Program-made: the position numbers and the translations under genes
Assembly: GCF_001590865.1 (NCBI RefSeq)
Contig: NZ_BBUY01000018.1
Location: forward strand, 62,001 to 126,000
Direction: 5' to 3'
Length of the DNA stretch: 64,000 nt
From: Streptomyces sp. NBRC 110611
Lineage (GTDB): Bacteria; Actinomycetota; Actinomycetes; Streptomycetales; Streptomycetaceae
Part shown: positions 34,165 through 64,000 of the stretch, in pieces
How the letters are laid out: the number at the start of each line of letters is the position of its first letter
Numbering within the stretch: the stretch's first letter is position 1
Notes under the pieces: generated by a model
Database searches by the model: none
What the model saw: only the letters and a program-made list of their open reading frames with translations
What the model was told of the DNA's origin: nothing

Positions 34165-35634
<1,470 letters not shown>

Positions 35635-42890: not shown

Positions 42891-42918
42891 GTCCGGACCA
42901 TGCCCTCCAGGGCCGCCG

Positions 42919-46278: not shown

Positions 46279-46294
46279 ACCTTCCCACGGGAGG

Positions 46295-46849
46295 TCAGAA
46301 GTCGACGCTGATGGGGTGGTCGGCGCGGGCCACGGACTCCTGGCCGAAGCGCTGGGTGTAAGCGGAGCGGATCTCCTCGATCTTGCGGCCGCTGGGCCCC
46401 TTGCGGCTGAGGGGGTACCACAGGATCAGCTCGTAGGAGCGCTCACGCTCGATGGCCCCGTGCGCGTCCCGGTACTGGCCTTGCCCCTGCTGGACGGTCA
46501 GTCCCTCCGGAAACCGGGGCGTGACGAATTCATCCACGAATCGCCGGAACTGCCGGTCGGTGACGGGAGGGGAGCCGTCGGCATGGGCGGTGCCGAAGAG
46601 GAGGCTGGTCTCCACGTACGGATCGCCGAGTACGGCCTGCGGCGGCTGGGCGACGGGGACGGATGCGGGGGCGGCGGCGGGGGCGGATGCTCGGGCCGGC
46701 GTGGGGGTGACGGCGGGTGCCGAGGCGGTCGCGGCGGCGCCGAGCAGGGCGGTGGACACCGCCAGGACCGCGAGACGCACACGGGCATGGCGCAGACGGG
46801 AACAGCGCAGTCGGTGCTGGGGCATCGGTGCCAACGGGCTTCCTCTCAC
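46295..46849 (-). CDS. Secreted DUF3574-family protein
   Basis: This 184-residue protein has an Arg-rich N-terminus and a signal peptide (VRLAVLAVSTALLGAAATAS), then an Ala-Pro linker to about residue 70. The core PYVETSLLFGTAHADGSPPV, RRFVDEFVTPRFPEGLTVQQ, GQGQYRDAHG and YELILWYPLS matches DUF3574. It is the last gene after the NRPS thiolation-condensation gene on the same strand, 72 bases downstream, and could share the transcript, though the family is not known from biosynthesis. Function unknown; probably exported. Confidence 0.85.
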   Translation of the reverse strand: MRGSPLAPMPQHRLRCSRLRHARVRLAVLAVSTALLGAAATASAPAVTPTPARASAPAAAPASVPVAQPPQAVLGDPYVETSLLFGTAHADGSPPVTDRQFRRFVDEFVTPRFPEGLTVQQGQGQYRDAHGAIERERSYELILWYPLSRKGPSGRKIEEIRSAYTQRFGQESVARADHPISVDF

Positions 46850-46921
46850 GGGGATTCGGCGGCGGGCGTAACGCGGATGCGGCGGCGGGCGTAGAGGTCT
46901 TCCGTGCGTCTTCCGTGCGTG

Positions 46922-48565
46922 CTACCCGGAGCGTGGTGCCACGGCAGCCGCCTCGGGGTGGGTGACGAGTCCGGCCACGGCGTGCAGTACATGTTCCAGC
47001 AGGCGGGCCGGCAGGTGCGGGCCGAAGCGGCTGGTGTCCGCCGTGACGACCAGGGTCAGTCCGTCGCCCGGGAGGCCGTTGAGCGCATCGACGCTCACCG
47101 GCAGGCTCGTATGGTCACGCATGTCCTCCTCGGCCGTCACCAGCCCCGCCGCCACGAGCTCCGCGCGGGGGTGGAAGTGCACATAGTTGAAGTTCACGAG
47201 GAACGGGTCGGGGCCCAGCAGCCGGCGCAGCTCCGCGTACGGGAACCGGCGGTAGGGCAGCAGACCGTTCTCCTCGGCGAGCGCCCGGCGGGCTGCCGCC
47301 TGCCAGGTCGCACCGGACAGGCCGAGGCGGAACGGCAGCCGGTTCAGGAACAGGCCCAGGGTCAGGGCCGCACCCGGGACCTCCGGACGGCCGTTCGTCA
47401 CCAGGCCGACGGTGGGGGTGTCGGTGCCCCACACGGCACCGGCCGCCGCGCAACAGGCCGTCAGCAGCAGGCTCTTGACGGGCACCCTCCACTGGGCGGA
47501 GAGCTGGGTCAGGCGCTGGGTATGGGCCTGCGGCAGGGCGGCGGTGGCGGTGGTCCGGGCAGCCGTCGACGGTCCCGGCGGAGCCTCCGCCTCCGAGGAG
47601 GCCGTCGACGGTCCCGGAAGCGCGGCCTCCGACCGGGCTGCCGGCACTCCCTGAGGGGCACCCCCCGGTGCGGTCCACAGACGGGTGAGGTAGCGCAGGG
47701 CGGCGGCGTCCTGCAGGGCTTCGCGTTCCAGGCGTACGAACGTGGCGTAGGGGGCCGGCTCCGGGAGGTCGGGGCGGGAGCCTGACCACAGTGCCGCGTA
47801 GGTGCGGGCGAGTTCACTGAAGAAGACCGCCTCGCTCCAGCCGTCCAGGATCGCGTGGTGGAAGGAGTAGGAGAACCGGAAGGTCCGCGGGCCCGTCGCC
47901 GCGGCGTGGGCACGCAGCAGAGGAGCGCGCTCCGGGTCGTAGGGTTCGGCGAGGCGCCGCATCAGCTCCTCATGCCGCTCGGCGGCCGTGGCCTGGTCGT
48001 CGGCCTGGTCGTCGGAGATCTCCAGGGGGATCGGCGCGGCCGGCTCCACCAGTTGCAGGGGTTCGCTGAACGTCGCCAGGTCGAAACGGGTACGCAGGAC
48101 GGGGTGGCGCTGCGCGAGCAGGTCCAGGGTGCGGCGTAACACGTCGGGGCGCAGGGGCCGGTTGAGGGTGCGGGAGATCACGTCGATATAGCACCGGCCC
48201 TCGCTCATCAGGCTTTCGTAGATCAGGCCGAGTTGGAGGTGCGCCGCCGGACAGGCGGCTTCGACGTCATCGGGGACGCGTGCCCGGTCCAGGGGGCTGA
48301 CGAGTGCGGAGGCGGCCGCGCCCGGGCCGCCGGAGGTGGTCAGCGCGGTGCACGCGCCGCGGGGGGTGGGGTTCTTGAACAGGTCCAGCAAGGTCAGGGA
48401 CAGTCCCTGCTCCTCCGCCGCGCCGATGATCTCGAGGGCGAGGAGGGAGTCGCCTCCCAGAGCGAAGAAGTCGTCGTCCGGCCCGACGCGGGGGACGTCG
48501 AGGATCTCCTGCCAGATCCGCGCGAGCGTCGCGACGGCGTCCGGCATGGCAGGGTCAGCGGGCAT
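46922..48565 (-). CDS. NRPS thiolation-condensation didomain protein
   Basis: This 547-residue protein starts at ATG 48565 after AGAGG. Residues about 8-78 are a thiolation domain (DDFFALGGDSLLALEIIG), with the pantetheine Ser at 40. Residues about 95-545 are a condensation domain with SFHHAILDGWSEAVFF (HHxxxDG, His 236-237) and the later LGLFLNRLPFRLGL and LVNFNYVH stretches. A Ser/Pro/Ala linker repeat (about 300-345) interrupts the two lobes. Codon 143 is TTA. The free T-C arrangement means donor and acceptor carriers are on other proteins, here the two A-T proteins. It is the seventh gene of the minus-strand operon. Confidence 0.9.
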   Translation of the reverse strand: MPADPAMPDAVATLARIWQEILDVPRVGPDDDFFALGGDSLLALEIIGAAEEQGLSLTLLDLFKNPTPRGACTALTTSGGPGAAASALVSPLDRARVPDDVEAACPAAHLQLGLIYESLMSEGRCYIDVISRTLNRPLRPDVLRRTLDLLAQRHPVLRTRFDLATFSEPLQLVEPAAPIPLEISDDQADDQATAAERHEELMRRLAEPYDPERAPLLRAHAAATGPRTFRFSYSFHHAILDGWSEAVFFSELARTYAALWSGSRPDLPEPAPYATFVRLEREALQDAAALRYLTRLWTAPGGAPQGVPAARSEAALPGPSTASSEAEAPPGPSTAARTTATAALPQAHTQRLTQLSAQWRVPVKSLLLTACCAAAGAVWGTDTPTVGLVTNGRPEVPGAALTLGLFLNRLPFRLGLSGATWQAAARRALAEENGLLPYRRFPYAELRRLLGPDPFLVNFNYVHFHPRAELVAAGLVTAEEDMRDHTSLPVSVDALNGLPGDGLTLVVTADTSRFGPHLPARLLEHVLHAVAGLVTHPEAAAVAPRSG

Positions 48566-48608
48566 GGAACCTCTTTCGTGTTCGGGGCCGGGCAACCGGC
48601 CGCCCTGG

Positions 48609-49922
48609 TCATAGGGTTCCCAACTCTGCGCCGGTGACGGCGCATTCGGTGCCGGAGAAGTCGAAGCGGTAGCGCAGGGTGGCGTCCACCTTCGCCGCGG
48701 TGGCGGCGAGTCCGGCCATATCGTCCGCCTCCCCCGTCACCACATCCAGCTCCCGCATCTGCACCCCGCCCGGCAGCGGCGCACCCAGACGCGCGTAGGG
48801 GCGGTAGAGCGTGACCCCCGGTATGCGGTTGACCTCCTCGATCCCGTCGACGGCCAGCAGCCGGCACGGGGTGCGCGGGGCGGGGTGGATGAGCTGGAAG
48901 TACACCCGTCCCCGGTAGAAGGGGGGCGGCGCCACCGCTTCGCCGAGCGCGACGCGGGCCGCCACCTCGACCAGACTGCACCCCTGAGCCCGCCCGGCCA
49001 GCTCGTTGATCCATCCCCCCAGCCGCCCGTTGACCTCGATGATCCGCGGCCCCCGTGGCGTGAGCTTCACCTCTGTGTGCGTCAGCCCCTCGCGTACCCC
49101 GAGCGCCTCGACGGCGCGCCGGGCCAGATCCCGCACCCCGGCCTCCTCGGCGGCGGACAGCGGCGAGGGCCAGAACCGCCCGGTCTCCCGGAACGGCGGC
49201 ACCATGGGAAACTTGCCGGTCACCGCCAGGTCGGTGACCTCACCGCCCCGTACGAGACTCTCGACGGACACGTAGTCACCGAACGGACCGCAGTCCCGGC
49301 CGATCAGGTACTCCTCCAGGACGAGCCCCCCGCCCGCCACCAGGCCGGGACGTTCCAGGGCCAGGGTCCGGCGCACCAGCTCCAGCCCGCTCGCCGCGTC
49401 GTCGACGGGAAAGGTGTTGCGGCTGCCGCCACCGTGTGCCGGTTTGAGAACCGCGGGCAAGCCGGTCGCGGCCAGCGCCGGCTCCCAGTCGCCCGCCGAC
49501 TCGATACGGTGACAGCGCACCGCGTCGACTCCCGCCACCCGCAGTGCCTCACGCTGCCGCCACTTGTCCGTCAGCAGGCCGTGCACATGCCGGTCGTGGA
49601 ACGGCAGCCCCAGCGCCGCGGCCAGTTCGGTGGCCAGGCCGAGAGCCGCCTCGCTGTAGGTGACCAGGGCGTCGGGGCGGTGGGCGCGCAGCTCCGCGGC
49701 GGCCCGGCCGGGCGCCTCGGCCATGACGACGGGGCCGAAACGGGCGAGCAGCGGCTGCATCGCCCGGGTGTGCTCATTGGGCGCGGCCACGAACACGCAC
49801 CGGGCCCAGTCCGCGAGACCGACGGCGAGGTCACCGGGGCGGGCCGCTCCCTCGTCGTACACGACGGCCAGCGTCTTGCGCGGGCCGCCGTCGGCGGGGG
49901 CGGGCGGTACGGGGGCAGGCAT
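48609..49922 (-). CDS. ATP-grasp ligase
   Basis: This 437-residue protein starts at ATG 49922. The ATP-grasp core spans about 110-330: DKWRQREALRVAGVDAVRCH, PAVLKPAHGGGSRNTFPVDD (Lys and Gly-rich loop), GLVLEEYLIGRDCGPFGDYV, and the Mg-binding HTEVKLTPRGPRIIEVNGRL. The enzyme joins a carboxylate to an amine through an acyl-phosphate, in the class used for small peptide and amide products. It lies between the M28 peptidase and T-C NRPS genes (gaps 35 and 43 bases), so it belongs to the cluster. The substrates are unknown. Confidence 0.92.
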   Translation of the reverse strand: MPAPVPPAPADGGPRKTLAVVYDEGAARPGDLAVGLADWARCVFVAAPNEHTRAMQPLLARFGPVVMAEAPGRAAAELRAHRPDALVTYSEAALGLATELAAALGLPFHDRHVHGLLTDKWRQREALRVAGVDAVRCHRIESAGDWEPALAATGLPAVLKPAHGGGSRNTFPVDDAASGLELVRRTLALERPGLVAGGGLVLEEYLIGRDCGPFGDYVSVESLVRGGEVTDLAVTGKFPMVPPFRETGRFWPSPLSAAEEAGVRDLARRAVEALGVREGLTHTEVKLTPRGPRIIEVNGRLGGWINELAGRAQGCSLVEVAARVALGEAVAPPPFYRGRVYFQLIHPAPRTPCRLLAVDGIEEVNRIPGVTLYRPYARLGAPLPGGVQMRELDVVTGEADDMAGLAATAAKVDATLRYRFDFSGTECAVTGAELGTL

Positions 49923-49957
49923 CGCGAGGGCTCCTTCGCTTCAGCGGTGGACGGGGC

Positions 49958-51478
49958 TCATCGACGGCCGTTGACCTCGGAGGTGTCGACGGCGTACCGG
50001 CCCAGGGCCCACGCCATCGACCTGCCGAACTGACCGAATATCGTCCGGTTCACGTTGGCCGGCGTATCGCAGCGCTGGTGGTAGCACGGGTCGAGCATCT
50101 GGCCCGCCGTCCCCCCGAAGAGTTCCGCCCACTCAGGCGTCTTGACGGTGTCCGCACCCGCGTTCACGCCCCCCGCCGGGATACCGGCGGCGATGAACGG
50201 GTCGTGGTCGGAGCGGTGATCCAGCGCCAGGCCCACGGTAGGCAGGCCGCGTGTGGCGAAGTAGCCGTTCAGGGCCCGGGAAATCTGCTCGGAGCCGTCC
50301 GGCGCGGGGCCGTCGAGGGTACGGCCGTTGTACACCTGGCGTGCGAAGTTGGGCGAGCCGATCATCTCCAGGTTGAGATAGAGCGCGGTCTCGTCACGCT
50401 GCTGCCCGGTCAGTTCGTCCACGTAATACCGTGACCCGGAGAGCCCCTTCTCCTCTGCCGCCCACCAGGCGAACCGCACCCGGTTCTCCACCCGGTCCCG
50501 GCGCGGGGCCAGCTGCACCGCGGTTTCCAGGAGCATCGCCGCGGCCGCCGCGTTGTCATTGGCGCCGGGGGTGGTGTCCACGCTGTCGAGGTGCGCCCCC
50601 ATCACCACCGTGTTGCCGGCCCGCCCGGTCGGGGTGTCGGCCAGCACGTTGTACGCCCGGTTGGTGGTCGCCCGGCCACGCAGGTCGAGAGTGAGCGTGA
50701 CAGGGCCGGCCGCCGGCATGTCCGCGAGCAGCTGCTCGGCCTCCGCACGCGTCACCGTGGCGGTCGGGATGCGGGCCGCGGACGGCGGATTCATCCGGTG
50801 GCGCAGGTTCAGCCCGGTCTGCGGGAGGTCCACGTTCATCAAGAGCGCCGCCGCTCCGGCGTCCGCCGCCAGTCGCTGCTTGTCCGTCAGGAAGCACTTC
50901 CCCTTCCGGACCAGAACGATCTTTCCGGTGACGTCGGCGCCGGCGTAGTCGGCGGCCGCACAGCCGGTGTCCTCACCGGACGGCACCACCAGCTGGGCCG
51001 TCACTCCGCCCTCGGGGGTGGAGCGGGAGAAGTTCGCCATGACGGGATGGAGCGTCCTGACTTCCGGGGCCTTCAACACGCCTGATTCGGCGGTCACTTC
51101 GAAGTCGGGAAAGGTGAAACGCTGCCGTTCGACCTGGTATCCGGCCGCGGTGAGCACCTTGGTGAGGTAGTCCGCCGAGGCGTCGTAACCCGCCGAACCG
51201 GTGACCCGGTGCCCGCCGTTCGCCGTCGTCGCCGCCTCGATGGCCGCCAGATGCCGCCAGGCGCCCCTGCCGGTCACGGCATGCGCCAGCTCGTCGGCCA
51301 GCGAACGGGCGGCGGGCGCGGGTACGGGCGCGGGCGCGCCGGGGGCCCGGGCCGGCGGCGGGGCCGGCGCACCGAGGGTGAGGACAGCGGCGCCCACCGC
51401 CGCGGCCACACACACCTTGCGCCGGAACCGACGCAGCCGACCCGGCCGGCCACGACGAGCAGAAGCATGAAGATTCAT
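49958..51478 (-). CDS. Secreted M28-family aminopeptidase
   Basis: This 506-residue protein starts at ATG 51478, about eight bases after GAGGAG. It has a basic signal peptide (RRFRRKVCVAAAVGAAVLTL), an Ala-Pro linker, a PA-domain insertion (VVPSGEDTGCAAADYAGADV), and the M28 zinc motifs GAHLDSVDTTPGANDNAAAA, WWAAEEKGLSGSRYYVD, LNLEMIGSPNFARQV and HRSDHDPFIAAGIPAGG. Cys pairs near the end (DPCYHQRCDTP) suit a secreted form. In a biosynthetic operon it could mature a peptide precursor or give resistance by cleaving a product. It is 13 bases from the MFS stop. Confidence 0.92.
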   Translation of the reverse strand: MNLHASARRGRPGRLRRFRRKVCVAAAVGAAVLTLGAPAPPPARAPGAPAPVPAPAARSLADELAHAVTGRGAWRHLAAIEAATTANGGHRVTGSAGYDASADYLTKVLTAAGYQVERQRFTFPDFEVTAESGVLKAPEVRTLHPVMANFSRSTPEGGVTAQLVVPSGEDTGCAAADYAGADVTGKIVLVRKGKCFLTDKQRLAADAGAAALLMNVDLPQTGLNLRHRMNPPSAARIPTATVTRAEAEQLLADMPAAGPVTLTLDLRGRATTNRAYNVLADTPTGRAGNTVVMGAHLDSVDTTPGANDNAAAAAMLLETAVQLAPRRDRVENRVRFAWWAAEEKGLSGSRYYVDELTGQQRDETALYLNLEMIGSPNFARQVYNGRTLDGPAPDGSEQISRALNGYFATRGLPTVGLALDHRSDHDPFIAAGIPAGGVNAGADTVKTPEWAELFGGTAGQMLDPCYHQRCDTPANVNRTIFGQFGRSMAWALGRYAVDTSEVNGRR

Positions 51479-51491
51479 ACCGTGGGGCTCC

Positions 51492-52749
51492 TCATGTCGG
51501 AGATTGCACCGCCGTATCCGAAGGACGGGGGACCGAGAACGCGCGGACATCGCGCAGCGCGACGACCGCCAGGTTGACCGCCACCACCAGGACCGCGGCG
51601 ACCACGAGCGGCACCGCCTCCCCCATGAGCGCCGCGGCCGGCGCGGCGACCGCGAGGCCGAGCGGCCGCGCCGACAGGGACAGCAGCCCGTCGTACGAAT
51701 CGGCGCGGGCCAGCAGATCGGGAGCGAAGCGCAGTTGGCGGGTCGTCAGCCAGAGCGCGTTGAGCACGCCGACCCCCAGCATGGCGACGCTGTAGGCCGC
51801 CACGTCCGCCCATGTAGCCACCGCCGCACCGCCCCAGGGCCACCGGTACGGCGAACGTGACCAGCGGCAGCGCGTAGAGCGCCGCGCAGGCCGAGCCGGC
51901 CACCAGCGGACGGCGGACCGGCAGCCTGGGCGCGACGAACGCACCGAGCACCATGCCCGCCATACCCGCCTGATAGATCACCACCCACACGCCTTCACCA
52001 CCCAGCCCGTGAACAGCGATCAACGGGCCGAGAGCCGTCAGCACACCGGCCGCGAAGTTGGTCACGCCGTGGCCGCACAGACTCATCCAGAACCACGGAC
52101 GGCGGCGGACCTCCTGCCAGCCCTCGGCGAGATCCCGTACGAACGGCACAGCGGTACGCGGCCGCTCCCGCCGGCCGACCCGGACCCCGGCCAGTGTGCC
52201 CGCGGCGACCGCGAACAGCACGGCCGTCAGCAGGAACGCCCAGGCGGCACCGGCCGTGACCACCACGATCCCCGCCACCCCGGGACCGGCCACCAGCGCC
52301 AGCCCCCGCGCGACACCGAAGTGGCTGTTGGCCGGCAACCGCCGCTCGGGCGGGACCACGGCCGTCAGCAGCGGCGACATCGTCGGGACGCCGAAGGACA
52401 CCGCGGCCCCCGTGATCCCCGACAGCACGGCCAGATCCGTGATCCGGACCGCGCCGGACAGCAGCTCGATCCCGATGACCAGCTGGGCCGCCCCGCGCAC
52501 CAGGTCAGCGGCCACGGCCACCCGCTGGGCGGGGACGCGGTCGGCCAGCGCTCCGCCGAGGGGGAGCAGCAGCAGCTGCGGCACGAATTCGGCCGCCAGC
52601 ACGATCCCCAGGTCCCCCGCGTCCCCGGTCGCCTTCACCACGGCCAGCGTCAGCGCGGTGGGGATCAGGGCCGTACCGAGGAACGAGAGCGTGCGCCCGG
52701 CCAGCAGCCGCCGGTATCCGGGCAGGGCGAAGACCGTGGCGCGGCTCAC
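51492..52749 (-). pseudogene. MFS exporter with internal frameshift
   Basis: The start at 52749 (MSRATVFALPGYRRLLAGRT) overlaps the thioesterase stop by four bases. Ten or so membrane segments follow normally through LYALPLVTFAVPVALG. Near 51835, in a C/G-rich stretch, the frame changes. The true continuation AVATWADVAAYSVAMLGVGV to the end (RAFSVPRPSDTAVQSPT, stop at 51492) lies in another frame. As sequenced, the product would lack the last helices. If the frameshift is a sequencing error, the gene encodes a normal 12-helix exporter; if real, it weakens self-resistance or export. The original frame continues to 51475. Confidence 0.8.
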
Positions 52750-53480
52750 GCCACAGCCTCGGACAACGCCTCGAGCAGGGTGGCCGGAGCGGACAGGAAG
52801 GAGTAGTGGCCGCCGTCGAGTACCGCGAACCGCACCTCGTCCCCGTAGTGTTCCCAGCCCTTGAGCTGGGCCTGGGTCACCTCGGGATCATCGGCCCAGT
52901 GCAGTACGGTCACACCGAACGGCACCCGCACCGGTTCCGCCAGCCGGTAGCCGCGGTTGGCGCCGAGGTCCTCGCGCAGGACGGCCAGTCCCAGATCGAG
53001 CAGCGCCGGATGCGGCCGCCCCCCGCGCAGCACCGCCAGGTGGGCCAGCTCCGCCCGGAGCTGGTCGTCGGTCATGTCCAGGAACCGGTCGTGCGGGCAG
53101 TGGTGCGGAGCGACCTGCGCCGAGACGAACAGCCGGCGGGGCACGGGCAGCCGGCGCCCGGCCAGCAGGCGCGCCGTCTCGAACGCGGGGAGTGCGCCCG
53201 CGCAGTGGCCGAAGAAGGCGAAGGGACGGTCCAGCCACGGCGCCAGCCCACCGGCCAGTGCCTCGGCCAGCGCCTCGTACGTGCCGTAGTGCGGCTCACG
53301 GATACGGTTCTCGCGGCCGGGCAGCTGCAACGGGCAGATCTCCGCCCCGCCGGCCCACCGGGGCCAGGCATTGAACATCGACGCCCCCACACCGGAGTAG
53401 GGGAAGCAGAAGATCCGCGCCCTCGCCTCCGCCGACGGCTCCCTCAGCAGCCAGCGCGCCGGTTCGGCAGCTGTGGTCAT
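52746..53480 (-). CDS. Type II thioesterase with cysteine nucleophile
   Basis: This 244-residue protein starts at ATG 53480. It has the type II thioesterase layout: ARIFCFPYSGVGASMFNAWP, QLPGRENRIREPHYG, the nucleophile elbow FFGHCAGALPAF, the acid near TVLHWADDPEVT (Asp197 or 198) and LDGGHYSFLS (His225). The elbow is GHCAG, with Cys93 in place of the usual Ser. Cys-type thioesterases are known from beta-lactone-forming NRPSs, so it could do more than hydrolytic editing. It lies between P450 and MFS in the operon. Direct repeats occupy the 128-base gap before it. Confidence 0.9.
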   Translation of the reverse strand: MTTAAEPARWLLREPSAEARARIFCFPYSGVGASMFNAWPRWAGGAEICPLQLPGRENRIREPHYGTYEALAEALAGGLAPWLDRPFAFFGHCAGALPAFETARLLAGRRLPVPRRLFVSAQVAPHHCPHDRFLDMTDDQLRAELAHLAVLRGGRPHPALLDLGLAVLREDLGANRGYRLAEPVRVPFGVTVLHWADDPEVTQAQLKGWEHYGDEVRFAVLDGGHYSFLSAPATLLEALSEAVA

Positions 53481-53504
53481 GCTCGGACACCTCGCATTCG
53501 TAGC

Positions 53505-53542
53505 GTCGCGTGCGTGAGGTCGCGTGCGTGAGGTCGCGTCAG
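53505..53542. repeat. 14-bp direct repeats upstream of thioesterase
   Basis: GTCGCGTGCGTGAG occurs at 53505-53518 and 53519-53532, with a third partial copy (GTCGCGT) following. They lie in the only large gap between the P450 stop (53609) and thioesterase start (53480). Confidence 0.8.
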
Positions 53543-53608
53543 CTCGGGTGCGCAGGAAGGACCCGCCGTTCCGGAGCCGGTGCCCGGACTCCGGGCGTGC
53601 CCCGCGGT

Positions 53609-54862
53609 TCACGTCCGGGCCGGGCGCGCCGGGGTCCGTACGGGCAGCCGCGTCATGCCGGAGACGAAGACGGACCGCAGGCGGCGTACCGGCCCGGCCA
53701 CCTCCACCGCGGCGAAACGCCGGAAGAACTCGTCGAACAGGACCCGGAAGGTGAGCCGGGCGAGCCCGGCCCCCAGGCAGTAGTGCGGTCCGTACCCGAA
53801 CGCGATATGGCGGTTGTCCTCGCGCCCCACGTCGAAGGTGTGCGGATCGGCGAACACCGACTCGTCACGGTTGGCCGAACCGATCCACACCGCCACCGCG
53901 TCCCCGGCCCGCACCCGGCCACCGCTCAGCTCGGTGTCGGCGGTCGCGTAGCGCAGGAAACTGCTGGCCGGCGACGTCCAGCGCAGCCCCTCCTCGACCA
54001 GCGACGGAATCAGGGCGCGGTCCGCGTCCACCCGCGCGAACTGGTCGGGGTGCGCACTCAGCGCCAGCAGCGTGCCGGCGACCGTGTGCGGGGTGGTGGC
54101 ATTGGCCCCCAGCAGCAGGCTGTAACAGGTGTAGAGGGCCTCTTCCTCGGTCAGCGGCACGCCGTCCGGCGCCGCTGTCAGCAGATGGGGGAGCAGCCCC
54201 TCGGCGAGGTCGTCGCGGCGCTGTTCCCGCAGGCGCCGGGAGAAGTACGCGAACAGCTGGTGGTGCGCCACGGCGAGGGTCGCGCCCTGGCCGCCCGTGC
54301 GGAACGCGGGATCGGCCGGGGCGGCCGCCATGGCGGTCCACCGCACCAGGTCGTCCCAGTCCCGCTCCGGCAGCCCCAGCAACGCGCCCGCCACCGCCAT
54401 CGGCAGCCGCAGCGCCCGCTGCGCCACATCCCACACACCACCGTCCGGCCCCGGGCTCAGGAAGGCCACCACGGCTTCCCTGACCCTGGCCTCCCAGGCC
54501 TCCACCGCCCGGACCGACAGCGGCGCGACGAGCGGCCGCCGCAGCCGCCCGTGCCGGGGCGGATCGGTGGACACCAGCATCTTCCCCGCCGACACATCCC
54601 CCTGTCCCAGCTGCGGCAGCAGGCTCCCGCGCTCCGAGGTGAAGGACCGGTGGTCGCCCAGGACCCGGCAGGCGTCCGCGTACCGGGTCACCGACCAGAA
54701 CGCCCGGCCGTCGGGGAGGACCTGGCGGTGCAGCGGGGCCCGCGCCCGCATCGCCGCCCACACGGCGTGCGGGGCGTCGGTGGCGTGGAACTCCGGGTCG
54801 AACAAGTCGATGTGTTCCAGGTCCGGCTCCGGCAGCTGCCGCGGCTTCGCGGTCGGGGTCAC
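53609..54862 (-). CDS. Cytochrome P450, likely acting on a carrier-bound amino acid
   Basis: This 417-residue protein starts at GTG 54862, overlapping the A-T stop (GTGA). The haem-binding loop is [16 protein letters not shown], with Cys about 362. The K-helix is SLVEEGLRW (ExxR) and the C-helix region has [17 protein letters not shown]. The I-helix reads [13 protein letters not shown], so the usual acidic residue before the Thr pair is Ala. Coupling to an adenylation-thiolation gene is the arrangement of P450s that hydroxylate the beta-carbon of carrier-bound amino acids. The substrate is inferred. Confidence 0.93.
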
Positions 54863-56691
54863 GATGCGTCGTCCTCCCGCCTGCCGGCCGGCCCGTCCGT
54901 CCGCCCGTCCGCCCATCCGTCCGCCCGCCCGTCGTCCACCGCGGCGGCCAGCGCGGCCGGTGTGGGACCGAGGTAGAAGGTCAGCGGGGAGATGTCGACG
55001 CCATACTCCCGCCGCAGTTCGTCCAGGATGCCGACCCCGAGGAGCGAATGACCGCCCAGTTCGAAGAAGTCGTCGTCGGCGCCGATCCCCGCGATGCCGA
55101 GCCGGTCCGCCCACAACGCGGTCACGGCGCGTTCCGTGGGGGTGCCCGGTTCCCGGTGGGCGGCCCGCAGTTCGGGGCGTGCGGTGGTGGTGTCCGCCGC
55201 CAGCGCGCCGCGGTCGACCTTGCCGTTGCGGGTCAGCGGCAGCGCGTCGAGCAGGCGGATCAGGGACGGGACGGCGTAGGCGGGCAGGACAGCGGCGAGC
55301 GCGGCGCGGATCCGCAGCGTCGAGGGCGTGGTGCCCTGCCGGGCGACGGCGAAGGCGACCAGCCGTTTGCCGCCCGCCGGTTCGCTCTGGGCGACCGCGG
55401 CCGCTTCGGCGACCTCGGGGAGCGCGGCGAGGGCCGCCTCCACCTCGCCGGGTTCCACCCGGAAACCGTGGATCTTGACTTGCCGGTCGGTGCGCCCTTC
55501 GTAGCGGAAGGTACCGTCCGCGAGCCGGCGTACGAGGTCCCCGGTCCGGTACATGCGGCTCCCCGGCTGCCCGGAGAAAGGATCCGCCACGAACCTCTCC
55601 GCGGTGAGCCGGGGCCTGCCGAGGTAGCCGTGCGCGAGCCCGGCCCCGGTCACACAGAGTTCACCGATCTCCCCGTCGGGAACGGGCCGCAGCGCGGCGT
55701 CCAGGACATAGACACCGGTGCCCTGGACCGGTCGGCCGATCGGCACCGGGCCGTCCACCGGTGCGGTGAGGGGGTGGCAGCAGGTGAACGTGGTGTTCTC
55801 GGTCGGTCCGTAGCCGTTGATCACGGTGGTGCCGGGGAGCGCCGCCAGGGCGCGGTTGACATGGGACGGGGAGAGGACGTCGCCACCGGCCAACAGGCAG
55901 CGCAGTCCGCGCAGTTCCGCCAGTGCGACCTCGGTCACCCGCTGGAAGAGGCCGGCCGTCAGCCAGAGCATGGTGACGCCTTCGTAGCGGACGACCTTGG
56001 CCAGTTCCTCGGTCGTCAGCTCTCCGGACGGGGCGAGGACGAGGCGGGCTCCGTTGAGCAAGGGGCCCCAGATCTCCCAGGTGGAGGCGTCGAAAGCGAA
56101 CGGAGCGAACTGCAGGAACACATCGTCGTCCCGGATCGCCGGCGTGGCATCGCCGAGCACCAGCCGGGATACGGCGCGGTGCGGGATGACCGCGGCTTTG
56201 GGGGCACCCGTCGACCCCGAGGTATAGGCGAGGTAGGCGGTGTGCGCGGGGGTGACGCCGCTGTCGTGGGGCGGGAGGTCGGGCCAGTCCGTGTCGAGCG
56301 GTAGGGCGGTGCATCCGGGGGGCAGCGGGGGCGCGGCCCGGTCCTGGTGCGTGAGCGTGTACCTGGCTCCGGAGTCGCGCAGCACCAGTCGCCGGCGCTC
56401 CGGCGGATAGCGGTGGTCGAGGGCGAGATAGGCGGCACCGGCCTTGAGTATTCCCAGCAGGGCGACGATAGCGGGGGTCTGCCGGATCGCGTCCACCGCG
56501 ACGACTTCTCCCGGACGTACACCGATATCCTGGAGGTACCGCGCGAGGCGACCGGAACGGGAGTCCAGCTCGCCGTAGGTCAATTCTCCGTCTTCCCCGC
56601 GCACCGCCAACCGGCGCGGATGGGCCCGGGCTTGCCGCGCGAATGCCACGGTGATCGGTGTCCAGTCCCCGTACGTCGGTAAGTCGCCCAT
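54859..56691 (-). CDS. NRPS adenylation-thiolation protein, predicted valine-type
   Basis: This 610-residue protein starts at ATG 56691 ([20 protein letters not shown]); codon 4 is TTA. The core motifs are [57 protein letters not shown] and NGKVD. The thiolation domain has [10 protein letters not shown] with Ser549. Pocket residues read by hand are D-A-W-W-L-G-G-T-F-K, close to the valine code DAFWIGGTFK, so Val or a similar branched residue is likely. The C-terminus is an Asp/Gly/Arg repeat. It leads the minus operon, followed by P450. Confidence 0.9.
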
Positions 56692-56865
56692 CGGCCCCCC
56701 AAGCCTGAACGTGCCGGAACTCCCGCGTCCGTTACCGGAACCGGTGGGATAGGTGATCAATAGGTGATCAACAAGAGTTTTCGGTGAACGGGGGCACAGC
56801 CCGCGCATGAGCCCCCCGTTCTCCTAGTAGCCCACGAAGGCCTGTGAGTGTCAAGGTACGTGAGT

Positions 56866-56895
56866 TTCCGTATGTGATGACGTGTAATTACGGAA
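56866..56895. promoter_or_regulatory. Inverted-repeat operator candidate in NRPS promoter
   Basis: TTCCGTA (56866-56872) and TACGGAA (56889-56895) are perfect 7-base arms 16 bases apart. They lie in the AT-rich centre of the divergent gap, a layout typical of a dimeric regulator site. No terminator-like U-tract is present. Confidence 0.55.
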
Positions 56896-56952
56896 GACAG
56901 GGGTGGTCAGGTCGTCATCCGGTGTCCTAGAGTGCGAAATCCCGCCCCCCGC

Positions 56953-56988
56953 GCGGTACCAAGTGCGGTACCGAGCGCTGTACCGAGA
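56953..56988. repeat. 12-bp tandem repeat in NRPS promoter region
   Basis: Three head-to-tail 12-base units (GCGGTACCAAGT, GCGGTACCGAGC, GCTGTACCGAGA) run from 56953 to 56988, each containing GTACC. The period of 12 bases is just over one helical turn. They are 112-148 bases upstream of the plus-strand NRPS start. Confidence 0.8.
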
Positions 56989-57100
56989 AACGTCGCCGGT
57001 ACCGGCCCCGCGGACAACGTCGCTCGTCACGCGCGTGCGCCACAAGCGCACGCCGGATCCGCAGATCCAAATCCCTCTACAGACAGTGAGGATGGTAGCG

Positions 57101-59086
57101 ATGGGTGAAGGCGTCGAGAATGTCTCGCATACGGACGGTGCGTTAACGCCCTACCGATCTGCCGCCTGGGTCTTTCAGGAAGTGGCCGCGGAAGCGGCCG
57201 CGCGCCCGGCTGTCCGGCACCACGAAACCCTTCTCACCTATCGCGATCTCGCCGGTGCCGCGGGCGGCGTCGCCCAGTGGCTCCAGCGGCACACCGCAGG
57301 ACGCGGGGCGACGGTCGCCACCCTGCTCAGCCGGTCCCCTCGGTGCGCGGTCGCCGCGCTGGGCGCCTGGGGAGCCGGTGCGGCCTACGTCCACCTCGAC
57401 CCCGAGGACCCGGACGAGCGCCTCCACGCCCTGCTGGCCGTCACCCGCCCCGACGCGATTCTCGTGGACGAGCACCATCTGGCGCGGCTGCCGGAATCCT
57501 CGGTACCGGTCTGCGTGCCGGACGCATCCCTGCCCACGGCGCCCTTCCGGGCCCCGGCGGACGCCGACCCCGAGGACATCGCCTATCTGGTGCACACGTC
57601 GGGGTCGACCGGAACCCCCAAAACCGTGGAAGTGCCACACCGCGCCGTCCTCAACCACCGCCGCGCATTCTGGCGTTATATCCACCCCGTACCGGCCGCG
57701 AGTTTCGGCCTGATGACGACATTCGCCGCGGATCTCGGTCTGCACTCGGTCTTCGGAGCCCTGCTCAGCGGTGCGCGACTGGATATCTACGACCGGCATA
57801 CGACCCTCGATCCGACGGCCCTGGCAGCCGAATTGCGCGCCCACCCGGTGGACAGCCTCAAATCCACCCCCTCCCTGCTGGGGGCATTGGCCAACCAGCA
57901 TGACATCGCGGCTTTCCTACCCCGCCGTATGCTTTTCGTCGGAGGGGAGAATTTCCCGCCTCGGCTGGCCGCCGCTCTTCTCGGAGCCGCCCCGGAATTA
58001 CCGGTCGTCAACTCCTACGGCCCTTCCGAGACCACCATGGCCATGATGTTCCACCGGATCACCGAAGCCGATGTCCGCCGCCCGCGGATACCCGTGGGTT
58101 CACCGATCGACGGGACACGGGTGCGGCTGCTCGACGACGCCGGAAGAGAGGTTCCCGACGGCAGCCCGGGAATCCTGTACATCGGCGGGCAGTGCCTCGC
58201 TCACGGATACCGGGGCGACCGGGAACTCACCGAGCGGAAATTCACCACCGACGATCACGGCGAACGCTTCTACCGCAGCGACGACCTGATGCTCCGCAAC
58301 TCCGACGGCCACTACGAATTCCTCGGCCGGGCCGACCGGCAGGTGAAGATCCGGGGATACCGCGTCGAACCCGGCGAGATCGAAGCCGCCCTGCTCGCTC
58401 TGTCGGACGTCCGGCAGGCTTTCGTCACGGGGGAGAGACCGGGGCCGGACCCCGAGGCCCCACTGGAACTCGTCGCCTATGTCGCCCAGGAGCCACCGGT
58501 CCCGGCCACCGAGCCATCAGACCCGGCCGCCGCACCACCGGCCCCGGCCGCCCAACCATCGGTCCCGGCCACCGAACAACCGGCCCCGGCCACCGAGCTC
58601 CCGGTCCCCGCCGCCGACCTCCGCGAACGGCTCCGCAGAACCCTCCCGCCGGCGCTGATCCCGCACCGGCTGCACCGCGTGACCGCCCTTCCCGTCACAC
58701 CGAACGGCAAGGTGGACGTGGCCGCACTGCCCTCCGCGGTGCTGCCGGACCCGCACGACGGGCCGCCCACGGCTCCGCCGCGTACCGAAACGGAGCGCTT
58801 GGTGGCCGGCATCTGGAGTGCGGTGCTCGGCCGCACGGAGATCGGCCGCGACGACCGCTTCATGGAAGTCGGCGGCGACTCCCTCAAAGCGCTGCGGGTC
58901 TTCGCCATGCTGCGCCGCCATCACCCCGGCCTGACCATCGGCCGGCTCTTCGAACACCCCACCGTCGCCGACCTGGCGGCCGCCCTGGACTCCGGGGGAC
59001 ACAGCGGGCCCTCCGCGCCACCTCACCCCTCCGCGCCACCACAGCCCTCCGCGCCAGCTCAGTCCTCCGAGGTCGTCGAGCTGTGA
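57101..59086 (+). CDS. NRPS adenylation-thiolation protein with TTA codons
   Basis: This 661-residue protein is read from ATG 57101, with GAGG about ten bases upstream; ATG 57092 is an alternative. Motifs are LVHTSGSTGTPKT, NSYGPSETTMA, YRSDDLMLRNSDG, GRADRQVKIRGYRVEPGEIE and NGKVDVAALPS. The thiolation domain has RFMEVGGDSLKALRVF with Ser594. Pocket residues by eye are D-L-H-K-F-G-S-M-A-K; the D-L-x-K pattern resembles Asp/Asn-type codes but is not a clear match. A Pro-Ala-Thr repeat (about 465-500) is inserted in the C-terminal subdomain. Codons 15 and 300 are TTA. It overlaps the next start (GTGA). Confidence 0.9.
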   Translation: MGEGVENVSHTDGALTPYRSAAWVFQEVAAEAAARPAVRHHETLLTYRDLAGAAGGVAQWLQRHTAGRGATVATLLSRSPRCAVAALGAWGAGAAYVHLDPEDPDERLHALLAVTRPDAILVDEHHLARLPESSVPVCVPDASLPTAPFRAPADADPEDIAYLVHTSGSTGTPKTVEVPHRAVLNHRRAFWRYIHPVPAASFGLMTTFAADLGLHSVFGALLSGARLDIYDRHTTLDPTALAAELRAHPVDSLKSTPSLLGALANQHDIAAFLPRRMLFVGGENFPPRLAAALLGAAPELPVVNSYGPSETTMAMMFHRITEADVRRPRIPVGSPIDGTRVRLLDDAGREVPDGSPGILYIGGQCLAHGYRGDRELTERKFTTDDHGERFYRSDDLMLRNSDGHYEFLGRADRQVKIRGYRVEPGEIEAALLALSDVRQAFVTGERPGPDPEAPLELVAYVAQEPPVPATEPSDPAAAPPAPAAQPSVPATEQPAPATELPVPAADLRERLRRTLPPALIPHRLHRVTALPVTPNGKVDVAALPSAVLPDPHDGPPTAPPRTETERLVAGIWSAVLGRTEIGRDDRFMEVGGDSLKALRVFAMLRRHHPGLTIGRLFEHPTVADLAAALDSGGHSGPSAPPHPSAPPQPSAPAQSSEVVEL

Positions 59087-61587
59087 GCCGTACCGAGCGC
59101 ACACCGCCGGACGAGCGGGCGGTGGCGGTCATCGGCCTCGCCTTCGAACTCCCCGGCTGCTCGGACTGGGCCGCGCTCCTCGACCTCCTGCGCACCGGCC
59201 GCACCGCCGTACGGCCGTTCCCGCCACGGCGAGCGGCGCGGACCGGTGCCACACCGTCCCCCGACCACCAGGAAGGCGGCTGGATCGACGACATCACCGG
59301 CTTCGACCACCGCCACTTCGGCCTGTCCCCCGCCGAAGCCCGCCGCATCGACCCGCGCCACCGCAGGCTGCTCCAGCTCGCCGTCCACACCATCGAGCAC
59401 GCCGGCTACTCCCCCGGCGAGCTGCGCGGCCGCAACGCGGCGGTACTCGTCGCGGCGAGCGGCGGGCCGGACCCCGTGCTCGGCCCGCCGCCCGGCCCGG
59501 ACGGCCGCCCGCTCATCGGGCCGGAGCTCGCCGGCAGCTCCCCGGCCTTCGCCCCGGGCCGTATCGCCTACCTCCTCGACCTTCGTGGTGGCGCGCTGGT
59601 CATCGACGCGGCCTGTGCGTCCTTCCTCGTCGCCGTACATGAGGCCCGCCGGAAACTCGCCTGCGAAGAACACGAGTTGGTGCTGGTCGGCGGCTACCAG
59701 ATGCTGTGCGGCCCGCCTCCCCGACGGGCGGCGGATGCCGGGGACCTGGGGCTCCTCTCCCCCACGGGCCGCTGCCGCCCATTCGACGAGCGCGCGGACG
59801 GGACGACTTTCGGCGAGGGCGGCGGGTTCGTCCTGCTGAAGCGGTACGCCGACGCCATACGGGACGGCGACGTGGTGCACGCCGTCATCACGGGCAGCGC
59901 CGTCCGTCACGATGGCGGCCGCCGCAGCGGGCTGACCACTCCGAGCCCGGCCGGCCAGGCCCAGGTCATCTCGGCCGCCCTCGCCGACTCCGGAGCCGAC
60001 CCGGCGAGCATCGGCTACGTCGAGGCGCACGGCACCGGCACCCGCATCGGCGACCCCATCGAAGTTCAGGGCCTGACCTCCGTCTTCGCGGACGCGGCCC
60101 GGCAGACCGGCTGCCCGCTCACCGTGTCGTCGGTGAAGGGGCACCTCGGGTACCTGGAAGGCATGGCGGGCTTCGCCGGACTCGTCCGCGTCATCGCCCA
60201 GTTCCGTACCCACGAGATCTTTCCGACCGCGCAGTTCCGCGCCCCGAACCCGCTGCTCGGCCTGGACCCGGCCACACTGCGGATCGCCGACCGCCGCCGG
60301 CCGTGGCCGGACCGCTCCGGGCAGTCGCGCCGGGCGGGCATCAGCGCCTTCGGCATCAGCGGCACCAACGCCCACCTCATCGTCGAGGAACCCCTCACCG
60401 CGGAACCTCTCACTGCGGAGCGCCTCACCGCGGAACGCCTCATCGTCGAGGAAGCCGTCACCGCGGAACGCCACACCGCCGAACGCCACACCGACGAGGG
60501 ACCCTTGGCGGCCGCGGGGTCTCCGCTCACCGGCGAACCTCGCCTCGCCCACGAACCTCGCCGCACCAGGACAGGCGAAGACGGCCGCGGTCCGGCCCGG
60601 ACCGACCCGGGAGACCACCTCGTCCCGCTCTCGGCCGCGAGCAGCGACACCCTGCGCACCCTCGCGGCCCGGCTGCGCGCCGTCATCGCCGCCGACCCGG
60701 CCGGCTTCCCCCTGGCCGACGCCGCGGACGTACTCGCCCTGGGCCGCGACCACCAAGCCTTCCGGATGGCCTGGGTCGTCGACGACACCACCCAACTCCT
60801 CGCCGAACTCACCACGTTGGCCCTCCCCGACCACACCGGTCGTCTCCCGGCGCCACCGACCGCCACCGGCGCACTCCCTCCTCCCCTCGTGCTCACCATG
60901 GGCGACACCGCTGAACCGGAACCCGGCCTGCCGCTCTCGCCCGCCCTGGCGCGGCTGCGTACCGATGCCGCGAGATATCCCGGCTGCGCGCGGGTGCTGG
61001 CCGAGGCGGAACGCCTGCTGCCGGCCACCCGCTGGTCGCCGGCCCAGCACCATGTCGTCCGGCTGGTCGCCCACCATGCCGTACTCGCCGGCTTCGGGGC
61101 CGTGCCGGAGCTGGTACTGGCGCATGGCGCAGGCGCCCGCGCCGCCCGCGTCGTCCGTGGACAGACCGACCTCGCCACGGCTCTGACGGCCACGGACTCC
61201 CCCTCCCACCGGCCCGCGGAACCTCCGAACGCCACCGCCCTGCGGAAGGTCGTGGCCCGGCTCCACCCGCGTACGACGGTCATCGACCTCACCCCGGGCA
61301 CCGCACTGTCGAACGCGCTCAACACCCACCTCCCCGCCGACCGGGCCGCCCGGCCCTGCGCCTCCCTTCCCCTCGCCCTCTGTCTCCTCTACCGGCGCGG
61401 CTTCGACCTCAAGTGGCGCTCAGGACTGGGACGCGCTCCCCACCGGCGCATCGAGCTCCCTGTCACACCCTTCGACGAAACACACTGCCGGCCGGCGCCG
61501 CAGGCGCATCGCGGCGGTCAACCCGGCCCACCCTGCCAACCCGGTCAGCCCGGTCAGCCCGGTCAAGGCGGGCTTCCCATCCGGTGA
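59083..61587 (+). CDS. PKS-like ketosynthase with substituted active site and degenerate AT region
   Basis: This 834-residue protein starts at GTG 59083, overlapping the A-T stop. Residues about 10-435 are a ketosynthase: AVAVIGLAFELPG, nucleophile VIDAACASF (Cys178), EAHGTGTRIGDP (His316), and SVKGHLGYLEGMAG. The last replaces the KxNIGH motif and has Tyr357 where the second catalytic His should be. A TAER-type repeat linker (about 437-475) follows. Residues about 600-700 resemble an acyltransferase, but the nucleophile elbow reads LAHGAGA rather than GHSxG. The post-AT stretch RRIELPVTPFDETHCRP is recognisable. There is no carrier domain. It may condense without decarboxylating, or be inactive. 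Confidence 0.82.
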   Translation: MSRTERTPPDERAVAVIGLAFELPGCSDWAALLDLLRTGRTAVRPFPPRRAARTGATPSPDHQEGGWIDDITGFDHRHFGLSPAEARRIDPRHRRLLQLAVHTIEHAGYSPGELRGRNAAVLVAASGGPDPVLGPPPGPDGRPLIGPELAGSSPAFAPGRIAYLLDLRGGALVIDAACASFLVAVHEARRKLACEEHELVLVGGYQMLCGPPPRRAADAGDLGLLSPTGRCRPFDERADGTTFGEGGGFVLLKRYADAIRDGDVVHAVITGSAVRHDGGRRSGLTTPSPAGQAQVISAALADSGADPASIGYVEAHGTGTRIGDPIEVQGLTSVFADAARQTGCPLTVSSVKGHLGYLEGMAGFAGLVRVIAQFRTHEIFPTAQFRAPNPLLGLDPATLRIADRRRPWPDRSGQSRRAGISAFGISGTNAHLIVEEPLTAEPLTAERLTAERLIVEEAVTAERHTAERHTDEGPLAAAGSPLTGEPRLAHEPRRTRTGEDGRGPARTDPGDHLVPLSAASSDTLRTLAARLRAVIAADPAGFPLADAADVLALGRDHQAFRMAWVVDDTTQLLAELTTLALPDHTGRLPAPPTATGALPPPLVLTMGDTAEPEPGLPLSPALARLRTDAARYPGCARVLAEAERLLPATRWSPAQHHVVRLVAHHAVLAGFGAVPELVLAHGAGARAARVVRGQTDLATALTATDSPSHRPAEPPNATALRKVVARLHPRTTVIDLTPGTALSNALNTHLPADRAARPCASLPLALCLLYRRGFDLKWRSGLGRAPHRRIELPVTPFDETHCRPAPQAHRGGQPGPPCQPGQPGQPGQGGLPIR

Positions 61588-61818
61588 ATCGGGTGCGCCC
61601 ACCCCGACTTGCGACCTCTCGGTGGTGCGGTGGAGCCGAAGGCATCCGACTCCGCGAGGAGCAACCGGCTCCGCTTGTCCGTACTATCTCTACGCCAAGG
61701 CCTGAGCAGGTGCGGCGAGCTGCCATGTCGCAGCATCCGCCCAGGGTGCGGTGGCACCGCGTTCCGCAGCCGCCGCCAGCCCCACGCCACGGCCACGAAC
61801 CGAGGAAAGGTCAATGTC

Positions 61819-62466
61819 ATGCCCGATACCACAGTCCCCGCCACCGAACTGACATCGCAGTACCTCACCCAGGTGACCGGCGACCTCGAACGCAACGTCA
61901 ACGAACAGGAGCGCATCAGCGCAGAAATCACCACGCTGCAGGAGCGGCTGGCCATGCTGCGACACGATCACACCGTGCTGGTCAACATGCAGCAAGCACT
62001 GGAAGCCGCGGCCCCCACCACTGAGCCCGCGGACTCCGGCCTCAGCCCCACCGTGCCCGCTCCCCGCAAGAGGCCCGCCGCCGAGTCCGGTACCCGGACG
62101 AAGAAGACCACGGCAGCGCAGGGCCGCGCGACGGCGAAGAAGCAGTCCGCGAAGAAGCCGCCAACGGCCACCGCAGACGCCAAGACGGCCCAGCCCACCC
62201 TGATCGAACTGATCCGCCGTGACCTGACCGAACACAGCGACCCGCGCTCCGCGGCAGACATCTCCGTCGCCCTCGGCGAGGCGCACCCCGACCGCCGCAT
62301 CAAGACCACCGTCGTACGCACCACCCTCGAAAACCTCGTCGCCAGGAACCAGGCACAACGCACCAAGCAGGGCGCCTCGGTCTTCTACACAGCCCCCACC
62401 CCGCCCGAGCCCGCTGCGGCCTCCCTGCCGTCGGCTACCGACCCTGGTGACGAGACGGTCCGTTGA
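61819..62466 (+). CDS. Coiled-coil/winged-helix-like hypothetical protein
   Basis: This 215-residue protein starts at ATG 61819 after AGGAAAGG. Residues about 10-62 form a coiled coil (LTQVTGDLERNVNEQERISA, EITTLQERLAMLRHDHTVLV). A Lys/Ala/Pro linker (about 75-125) resembles histone-like tails. Residues about 130-190 look like a winged helix (LIELIRRDLTEHSDPRSAAD, IKTTVVRTTLENLVARNQAQ, GASVFYTAP). A DNA-binding architectural or regulatory role is plausible. It is downstream of the KS gene by 231 bases with its own promoter region and converges by 32 bases on the next gene. The family is not recognised with certainty. Confidence 0.75.
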   Translation: MPDTTVPATELTSQYLTQVTGDLERNVNEQERISAEITTLQERLAMLRHDHTVLVNMQQALEAAAPTTEPADSGLSPTVPAPRKRPAAESGTRTKKTTAAQGRATAKKQSAKKPPTATADAKTAQPTLIELIRRDLTEHSDPRSAADISVALGEAHPDRRIKTTVVRTTLENLVARNQAQRTKQGASVFYTAPTPPEPAAASLPSATDPGDETVR

Positions 62467-64000
62467 GTCGTGCCAGTGTCTTCTGGAGGGATTCGAGGGC
62501 GCCTCGTTGACGGCCGGGGACACGGTGACGGAGGGCCATGAGGCGGGTGGCGAGCGCGCGGGCGGCGGTCGCGTCGCGCAGGTGCATCCACTGGTGGTGG
62601 GCGCCGTCCACAGCGGTTTCGACGTCGCGGGCGTCGGGAGCCTGCTGCAGCGTGTCGAGGCGGGCCTCGGCGGCCTGGAGCCACAACTGGCAGGCCTCGG
62701 AATGGTCCTGGGCGACCGAGGTGATGAAGGCGCGGACCTCGATCCAGTGGACGGCCGCGTACGTGTCGGCTCCGTAGGTCCGAACGGCCCGCTGCTCGGC
62801 GGCGGCCGCCAGCTCGGCGGCTTCGCGATGGCGGCCGGCCTTCGACAGGGCGGCGATCTGCTCATGCGGCTCGGCCGCGGCCGGTATCACGGTCTCGCCG
62901 GGCACGTGGACGGGTGGGACGGCCCGCTGGTCGGGCAGGGGCGGGGACGCCTGGGCCTCGGGCCGGGGCGGTGTCGCCGGGGCGGGGGCCAGGGCCGGAT
63001 TCCCGGGCGGCTCAGGAACGTTCGCGACGATGGCGGGCAGCACGGCAGGGGTGGGCATGGTCTGCGCGGGAGCGGGCTGCTCGGGGCCCAGGACGATGGC
63101 GCCCTCGGTGTCCACGCGGTGGAGTGCGGCGTGGTGCAGCTGGTCGGGGGCGCCGCGCCGGCCGGTGCGCAGGATCTGTGCCAGGGCGTGCATGTACCGG
63201 GGCTGGGCGATCCGCCGGCGCCCCGGCGGTGGGGAGATGACGCCGTACACCGTGCTGTTGCCGAAGGGGAGCGGCTCGTCGAGCAGCTGCTCCCACACCT
63301 CCGCGTCGGCGACCAGGTCCGCGTAGAGGGTGGTGCCGGGGCGGCGCTGGCGCAGTTCGCGGATGAGCCAGGACCACGGCAGGGCGGTGTAGCGGGTCGT
63401 CGCGGGCGTGGTACGGGCGAGTGCCAGGTGGACGGCGTGCTGGCGGCGGTCGAGCTGCAGTTGGCCGACGAGCACGATGGTGAGCGGACCGCTCGTGGCG
63501 GCCGCGGCACGGATGCGCGTCAGCACGGCCTGCGGCTCGGTGGGGTCGGTCAGCTCGATGAGCGTGGCGGCGGCCCACGCGGATGGTGGAATGGCGGCGA
63601 GCGCGGGCACCACGCTGTTCGCGTCCAGCAGCCGTCCCTTGCCCGCGGGAGCGGCTGCCAGCAGCAGCGCGGTCCCGGGTTGCGCCTCCGCCCAGTTGAT
63701 CTGCACATATGCACCGTAGCCGCTGGCCCCGACATCTGGCCGAGTTCCCACACGAAGTAGCCGTTGAACGGGTGCCGCCGCCCGCCCGGGCGCGGCCTTG
63801 GGCGGGGTCGCGACGGCCTCCGACCCGGCTTGTGCCCGGGCGAGTTGGCGTACGCTGAAATGGCAGGTCGTGGCAGGGCCGGGAGGGGGCAGGACGGGGT
63901 GGACGGGTATCTCCTTGTCGGTGATCTCATGGCAGCCACCGTGGTCGCCGTCCCGGTGCGGCGCGGCGGGCCGCGTGGCGTGCGGCGCCGGGTCGCGCAC
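62435..64000 (-). CDS. Hypothetical protein with C-terminal TPR-like helices (may start outside window)
   Basis: The frame is open from the right edge (a GTG lies at 64000) to a stop at 62435, up to 521 residues. The true start may be within the first 90 codons, which are low in recognisable structure. Residues about 95-290 look like an alpha/beta domain (GYGAYVQINWAEAQPGTALL, VLVGQLQLDRRQHAVHLALA, WSWLIRELRQRRPGTTLYAD, GVISPPPGRRRI). A long Pro/Ala linker (about 320-395) leads to TPR-like helices (IAALSKAGRHREAAELAAAA, DTYAAVHWIEVRAFITSVAQ, WLQAAEARLDTLQQ). I do not recognise the family. Confidence 0.65.
   Translation of the reverse strand: MRDPAPHATRPAAPHRDGDHGGCHEITDKEIPVHPVLPPPGPATTCHFSVRQLARAQAGSEAVATPPKAAPGRAAAPVQRLLRVGTRPDVGASGYGAYVQINWAEAQPGTALLLAAAPAGKGRLLDANSVVPALAAIPPSAWAAATLIELTDPTEPQAVLTRIRAAAATSGPLTIVLVGQLQLDRRQHAVHLALARTTPATTRYTALPWSWLIRELRQRRPGTTLYADLVADAEVWEQLLDEPLPFGNSTVYGVISPPPGRRRIAQPRYMHALAQILRTGRRGAPDQLHHAALHRVDTEGAIVLGPEQPAPAQTMPTPAVLPAIVANVPEPPGNPALAPAPATPPRPEAQASPPLPDQRAVPPVHVPGETVIPAAAEPHEQIAALSKAGRHREAAELAAAAEQRAVRTYGADTYAAVHWIEVRAFITSVAQDHSEACQLWLQAAEARLDTLQQAPDARDVETAVDGAHHQWMHLRDATAARALATRLMALRHRVPGRQRGALESLQKTLARLNGPSRHQGR

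Follow-up and report, generated by a model that had tools for sequence, protein, structure and literature searches.

A probably shortened, apparently uncharacterised hybrid NRPS-PKS locus with a putative aminoacyl-shuttle cassette in Streptomyces sp. NBRC 110611

What could be made by a biosynthetic locus whose ketosynthase has an altered active site and whose assembly line stops short of those of its relatives? The question is raised by positions 46922–61587 of a 64,000-nt stretch of Streptomyces sp. NBRC 110611 DNA (contig NZ_BBUY01000018.1, positions 62,001 to 126,000; "the window", in which all unattributed coordinates below are counted); the genome is 7.9 Mb in 98 contigs, and this contig ends 2.3 kb past the window. 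Adenylation (A), carrier (T), condensation (C) and ketosynthase (KS) domains occur there together in one divergent gene set, and the locus is a real, apparently uncharacterised cluster of the hybrid nonribosomal peptide synthetase–polyketide synthase (NRPS-PKS) type, a variant of known NRPS-PKS logic that is probably shortened and possibly decaying. On balance we favour the view that it belongs, in reduced form, to an actinomycete family of such clusters, in which valine would be loaded, beta-hydroxylated and shuttled by a thioesterase with a Cys nucleophile to a T-C protein, ending in a short peptide or in decay.

Every part named in an initial annotation of the locus was recovered by Pfam: condensation (3.8e-45) and PP-binding (4.8e-15) domains in the T-C protein, ATP-grasp_4 (2.5e-6), an M28 peptidase with a PA domain (9.8e-42), a thioesterase (6.9e-27), a cytochrome P450 (2.9e-23), a KS (7.8e-55) and two A-T proteins (5.1e-83 and 7.6e-66). 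That annotation had missed an MFS exporter and a degenerate acyltransferase (AT) behind the KS, and was right that neither a regulator nor a type I thioesterase domain is among the genes identified in 46922–61587. The starts and stops of A-T1/P450, thioesterase/MFS and A-T2/KS overlap, so the locus looks like two divergent operons around a gap of about 400 bases between gene starts (56692–57091). Several listed open reading frames (ORFs) begin too far upstream, and likely starts were reassigned; no match to the sigma-70 consensus was found within 46200–62500.

The proposed pathway begins with three genes of the leftward operon, all on the minus strand. These are A-T1 (54859–56691), with the valine-type specificity code DAWWLGGTFK; the P450 (53609–54862), a predicted hydroxylase of carrier-bound aminoacyl groups whose heme Cys motif is intact; and a type II thioesterase (52746–53480), a predicted aminoacyl shuttle whose motif reads GHCAG, in agreement with the Cys-type enzyme annotated earlier. 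Together with MFS, T-C and ATP-grasp genes they recur in Actinomadura sp. 6K520 (NZ_SMLC01000043; our loci L009 and L025) and in three further genomes, G014, G025 and G282 (L064), the last from the same genus as the window. The A-T1 code is DALWLGGTFK in all four of these relatives, and DALWMGGTFK is quoted for valine in passages of PMC3943440. Thioesterases close to an A-T/P450 pair carry GHC(A/G)G in six of six cases (the window, two in Actinomadura, G014, G025 and G282), and seven of the eight other thioesterases found with the profile have Ser (two in G014, one each in G025, S. clavuligerus, G282, G555 and G393); the eighth (G054, L066 16425–17078), which follows an A-T outside the cassette, has Cys in the motif GWCLG. 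The locus has a stand-alone A-T, a tailoring enzyme and a separate carrier without its own A domain, the parts of a shuttle cassette. Carrier-to-carrier aminoacyl shuttles are experimentally known in CmaE, SyrC, CysB and LgnA (excerpts of PMC8748450 and PMC7966384); there, as proposed here, a dedicated alpha/beta-hydrolase-like enzyme moves aminoacyl groups between carriers, in some cases after modification on the carrier, although LgnA has Ser and the window enzyme has Cys, a RifR-like sequence and a transfer activity that is predicted. By this scheme A-T1 would load valine or a close analogue, the P450 would hydroxylate it on the A-T1 carrier, most likely at the beta carbon, and the thioesterase would transfer the hydroxyvalyl group to the carrier of T-C. 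The Cys enzyme is more plausibly an aminoacyl shuttle or release enzyme that belongs with A-T1 and the P450 than a substitute for a terminal thioesterase.

The same enzymes might instead work by release, the thioesterase cleaving the hydroxylated amino acid from A-T1 by hydrolysis, and the ligase of the ATP-grasp type coupling the free acid in a nikkomycin-type pathway. A RifR-type thioesterase and a BacD-like ligase would suit such a route, and passages of PMC7966384 name novobiocin, nikkomycin and vancomycin as cases in which thioesterase release precedes A-domain reactivation or a ligase step. Polyoxypeptin PlyC, PlyR and PlyS resemble the cassette (free A plus carrier, P450 and thioesterase for beta-hydroxyleucine), but for that system release and renewed activation of the amino acid are proposed, and the passages at hand of PMC3943440 mention neither an ATP-grasp protein nor a T-C. 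Release would, however, leave a T-C carrier that has no A domain of its own and must be charged in trans, which an A domain with no detected carrier beside it could do in five further loci (S. clavuligerus, G157, G055, G142 and G555), and it does not fit well with Cys in place of Ser in all six cassette thioesterases. We consider it doubtful.

If the shuttle reading is preferred, the acceptor would be the T-C protein (46922–48565, minus strand; ORF open to 48595), a carrier plus condensation domain without an A domain, in which HHAILDG is intact and the carrier motif GGDSL is visible in the translation. Among 15 loci bearing the ATP-grasp gene, eight have T-C in one frame (the window, Actinomadura, S. 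clavuligerus, G014, G025, G157, G282 and G393), and in three (G055, G142 and G555) the C-domain protein is immediately preceded by a carrier in a separate frame or protein, T and C being separate proteins in G055. No adjoining carrier was detected for an A domain in the five loci just named. We infer from these sequences that loading of the carrier ahead of this C domain usually happens in trans, through a shuttle or a free A domain, a reading that leaves G393 aside. The G014 and G025 NRPSs have the order A-T-C-A-T-TE (TE, thioesterase), with no C found ahead of the first A, and T-C would supply the missing domain. In G142 and G555, whose KSs are more distant than those of the close relatives, a single open frame encodes C-A-T-KS and a carrier is encoded immediately upstream in a different frame, which supports the order T, C, A-T2, KS for the unfused proteins of the window. 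T-C therefore probably feeds A-T2 (57092–59086, plus strand) and then the KS, and its C domain would couple hydroxyvalyl to the residue on A-T2. The A-T2 code, DLHKFGSMAK, gives no substrate prediction; those of other loci differ (DLHNFGAIEK, DIATVIGIAK, DLVTVAGILK), so the second residue probably varies among loci.

The chain would then meet a KS unlike those of its relatives (59083–61587, plus strand). Seven aligned KSs all keep the active-site Cys and HGTGT, and the second His is present in all six relatives; the K-x-N-x-G-H position reads KGHLGY in the window, with Tyr for that His, and the DTACSS position reads DAACAS. The altered active site already pointed out in the annotation is thus peculiar to the window copy among the aligned KSs, which lacks the Cys-His-His set of a condensation-competent KS. 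About 290 residues behind the KS match the PKS KS-AT linker and AT in profile searches (degenerate AT, 60613–61494). The GHSxG position there is AHGAG (as in S. clavuligerus; AHGTG in Actinomadura), so no active AT is present in cis and we call the protein KS-AT(inactive); its predicted AT structure, with a mean pLDDT of 48.6, was too poor for a structure search. In the three closest KS relatives KS-AT continues with T-C and further domains, which are absent behind the window KS, and "compact", as the locus had been called, is better put as reduced. Searches by tblastn with the Actinomadura tail genes gave only short, chance-like matches on its left side (best E 0.011) and no match at the contig end, and all matches to one Actinomadura A-T-C query in the strain's own genome were at most 41% identical. 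With the second His lost and the carrier and condensation domains gone, the window KS is unlikely to elongate. In the closest relatives the chain would pass on to KS-AT(inactive)-T-C for polyketide extension; with the window arm having lost these parts, the expected outcome would be a short beta-hydroxyvalyl-X peptide that is not extended by polyketide units, or no product at all if the locus is decaying.

These three relatives show what a fuller line looks like. Actinomadura shares the divergent order, with A-T2 and KS on one side and A-T1, P450, thioesterase, MFS, ATP-grasp and T-C on the other (56–70% identity); it differs in that its KS is intact and runs on into T-C, and it also has two A-T-C proteins, a further free T-C, serine hydroxymethyltransferase, and a second A-T/P450 pair close to a Cys thioesterase on the opposite strand; no M28 gene was found in its cluster. 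G282 has A-T1, P450, Cys thioesterase, MFS, KS-AT(inactive), A-T2, ATP-grasp (72% identity), T-C (63%) and M28 (64%); unlike the window it has an intact KS followed by T-C-T-C, a Ser type II thioesterase, and ATP-grasp and T-C at the opposite end of the cluster. It also contains FkbH and ketoacyl synthase III (KAS III) genes (L064 11519–14471), which we take to suggest a glyceryl-derived unit or a tetronate-type release. The S. clavuligerus locus (pSCL4/pCLA1, L036) shares A-T2, KS-AT(inactive)-T-C, ATP-grasp (52%) and T-C (42%), and differs by an acyl-CoA dehydrogenase, ABC transporters and a C-A-T-TE protein; the A-T1/P450/Cys-thioesterase set was not found in the 37.5 kb of it that were read. 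Two pairs of a pyridoxal phosphate (PLP) enzyme with an ornithine-cyclodeaminase-like protein, also foreign to the window, lie there with the dehydrogenase (19564–29592); such pairs serve in diaminopropionate synthesis.

Is this KS, then, simply dead? When private changes were counted at sites invariant in the other three of four close sequences, the window KS had 41/218, Actinomadura 18/195, G282 22/199 and S. clavuligerus 40/217, so that the window copy has about twice the private changes of the first two relatives. No excess over Actinomadura and G282 was seen in ATP-grasp, T-C, A-T1, A-T2, thioesterase or the degenerate AT, and the P450 is slightly higher (18/204 vs 15/201 and 9/195). A KS that has taken on another task (transacylating, releasing or cyclising the dipeptide on A-T2) in a shortened, fully working pathway would retain Cys and HGTGT, as this one does while still being 66% identical to the Actinomadura domain. 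In azaserine biosynthesis the KS-like AzsD carries acyl groups from one carrier to another, and SalC, a KS, works as an aldolase/beta-lactone synthase (parts of PMC10445470 and PMC9582728, respectively); PMC6855096 and PMC5764310 make only general remarks on non-elongating KSs. Against such a role, the 41 private changes are scattered along the domain and no carrier partner lies within the protein, and we think it unlikely. A more specific version would be quite improbable: the KS, recruited into a role other than elongation, would act in acyl transfer, release or cyclisation of a beta-hydroxyvalyl dipeptide brought by the Cys thioesterase, and M28 would strip off an ATP-grasp cap outside the cell. 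On its sequence the KS may be either dead or otherwise employed.

The remaining genes would finish and export the product. The ATP-grasp protein (48609–49922, minus strand) is L-amino-acid-ligase-like, with BacD (9.1e-18) and BL00235 (2.2e-12) as its best, low-similarity matches among solved structures, and scores below the curated NCBIfam cut-offs of BacD and DdaF; it is 63% identical to its Actinomadura counterpart. It probably adds an N-terminal residue; doing so on a carrier-bound amino acid would resemble what BtrJ of butirosin reportedly does. The M28 metallopeptidase (49958–51478, minus strand), with M28 and PA domains, a signal peptide recognised by eye and metal-site motifs visible by eye in the alignment, is predicted to be secreted and would trim or activate the product outside the cell; we hypothesise that in the window and in G282 it removes a cap there. 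Its NLEMI motif carries Glu in both copies, at a position where Asp is usual. That it is a bystander was considered and rejected: it has its relative inside the G282 cluster, and its paralogues in the strain's own genome are only 43% and 39% identical over part of the length. The MFS protein (51492–52749, minus strand; stop at 51492), if intact, would export the product; its frame shifts between about 51844 and 51815, so that the last 100 or so residues, 64% identical to the Actinomadura protein, are read in another frame.

This frameshift, together with the loss of T-C and later modules, the divergent KS without its second catalytic His and a low-complexity tail on the KS protein, might mean that the whole locus is a relic with its right-hand modules deleted, a KS pseudo-domain, a broken exporter and no product. 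However, the other genes evolve about like those of the relatives, the checked motifs are intact in T-C, A-T1, A-T2, the P450 and the thioesterase, the overlapping starts and stops suggest intact operons, and the frameshift may be a draft-assembly error, the tail beyond it being still conserved. A relic is thus possible, though not the probable case.

Several other points weigh against the valine-shuttle account that we favour. The A-domain codes depend on a PheA reference, and the second Actinomadura A-T has the code DPFWLGGCFK, so valine is not a fixed feature of the cassette. In sequence the window thioesterase comes nearest to RifR-type hydrolases and so may simply release the amino acid. 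The two best PDB matches of the P450 are labelled CYP125MRCA, with the 4l0e set third and 3mgx sixth, the latter two being aminoacyl-carrier hydroxylases. T-C was not seen in the stretch read of four of the 15 ATP-grasp loci (G054, G083, G098 and G119, the last on a short contig), and M28, found in the window and G282, was not detected by tblastn in any of 13 further loci belonging to seven clusters. The KS differs in rate only modestly (uncorrected Fisher p 0.007 and 0.03; a Tajima chi2 of 4.81, the largest of eight tests), the S. clavuligerus KS deviates as much as the window KS, and the locus as a whole is possibly decaying.

The earlier suggestion of an undescribed pathway making a small modified peptide is borne out in that no described cluster with this gene set was found in the literature on the set, its relatives or its single enzymes (a search made apart from MIBiG and antiSMASH, with most subscription papers outside it), and the examined parts of PMC5702194 and PMC6856088 contain no description of the S. 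clavuligerus locus; the gene set is not unique, as relatives share most of its genes. Bactobolin and actinobolin were considered, and nothing found supports either. A contig scan with T-C gave eight loci, one of them close (Actinomadura, L009, 58% in the best segment). ATP-grasp matches occur, own genome included, in 10 of 150 genus genomes at 1e-60 and in 4 of 394 genomes drawn from the class at 1e-70. The degenerate AT matches at 1e-15 in 2 of 295 genus genomes, its own and G282, so the cluster around this KS is rare in the sampled genomes.

Elsewhere in the window, an MFS transporter, a small haem-oxygenase-like diiron protein (weakly related to CADD) and a TerD protein are encoded near the locus (41628–44405), argininosuccinate synthase, a 396-aa protein and a 974-aa GT4/Stealth fusion at 34177–39789, and contractile phage-tail-like genes (a baseplate V/GPD protein and a tail sheath), perhaps an extracellular contractile injection system, at 2867–10874.

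The comparison points to an uncharacterised actinomycete cluster family in which a carrier that lacks an A domain and stands before C receives its load in trans and occurs together with an ATP-grasp ligase; it also offers a natural series of assembly lines from full (Actinomadura, G282) to shortened (the window). If the shuttle is true, a Cys thioesterase beside an A-T/P450 pair would be a genome-mining marker for trans-loaded modules.

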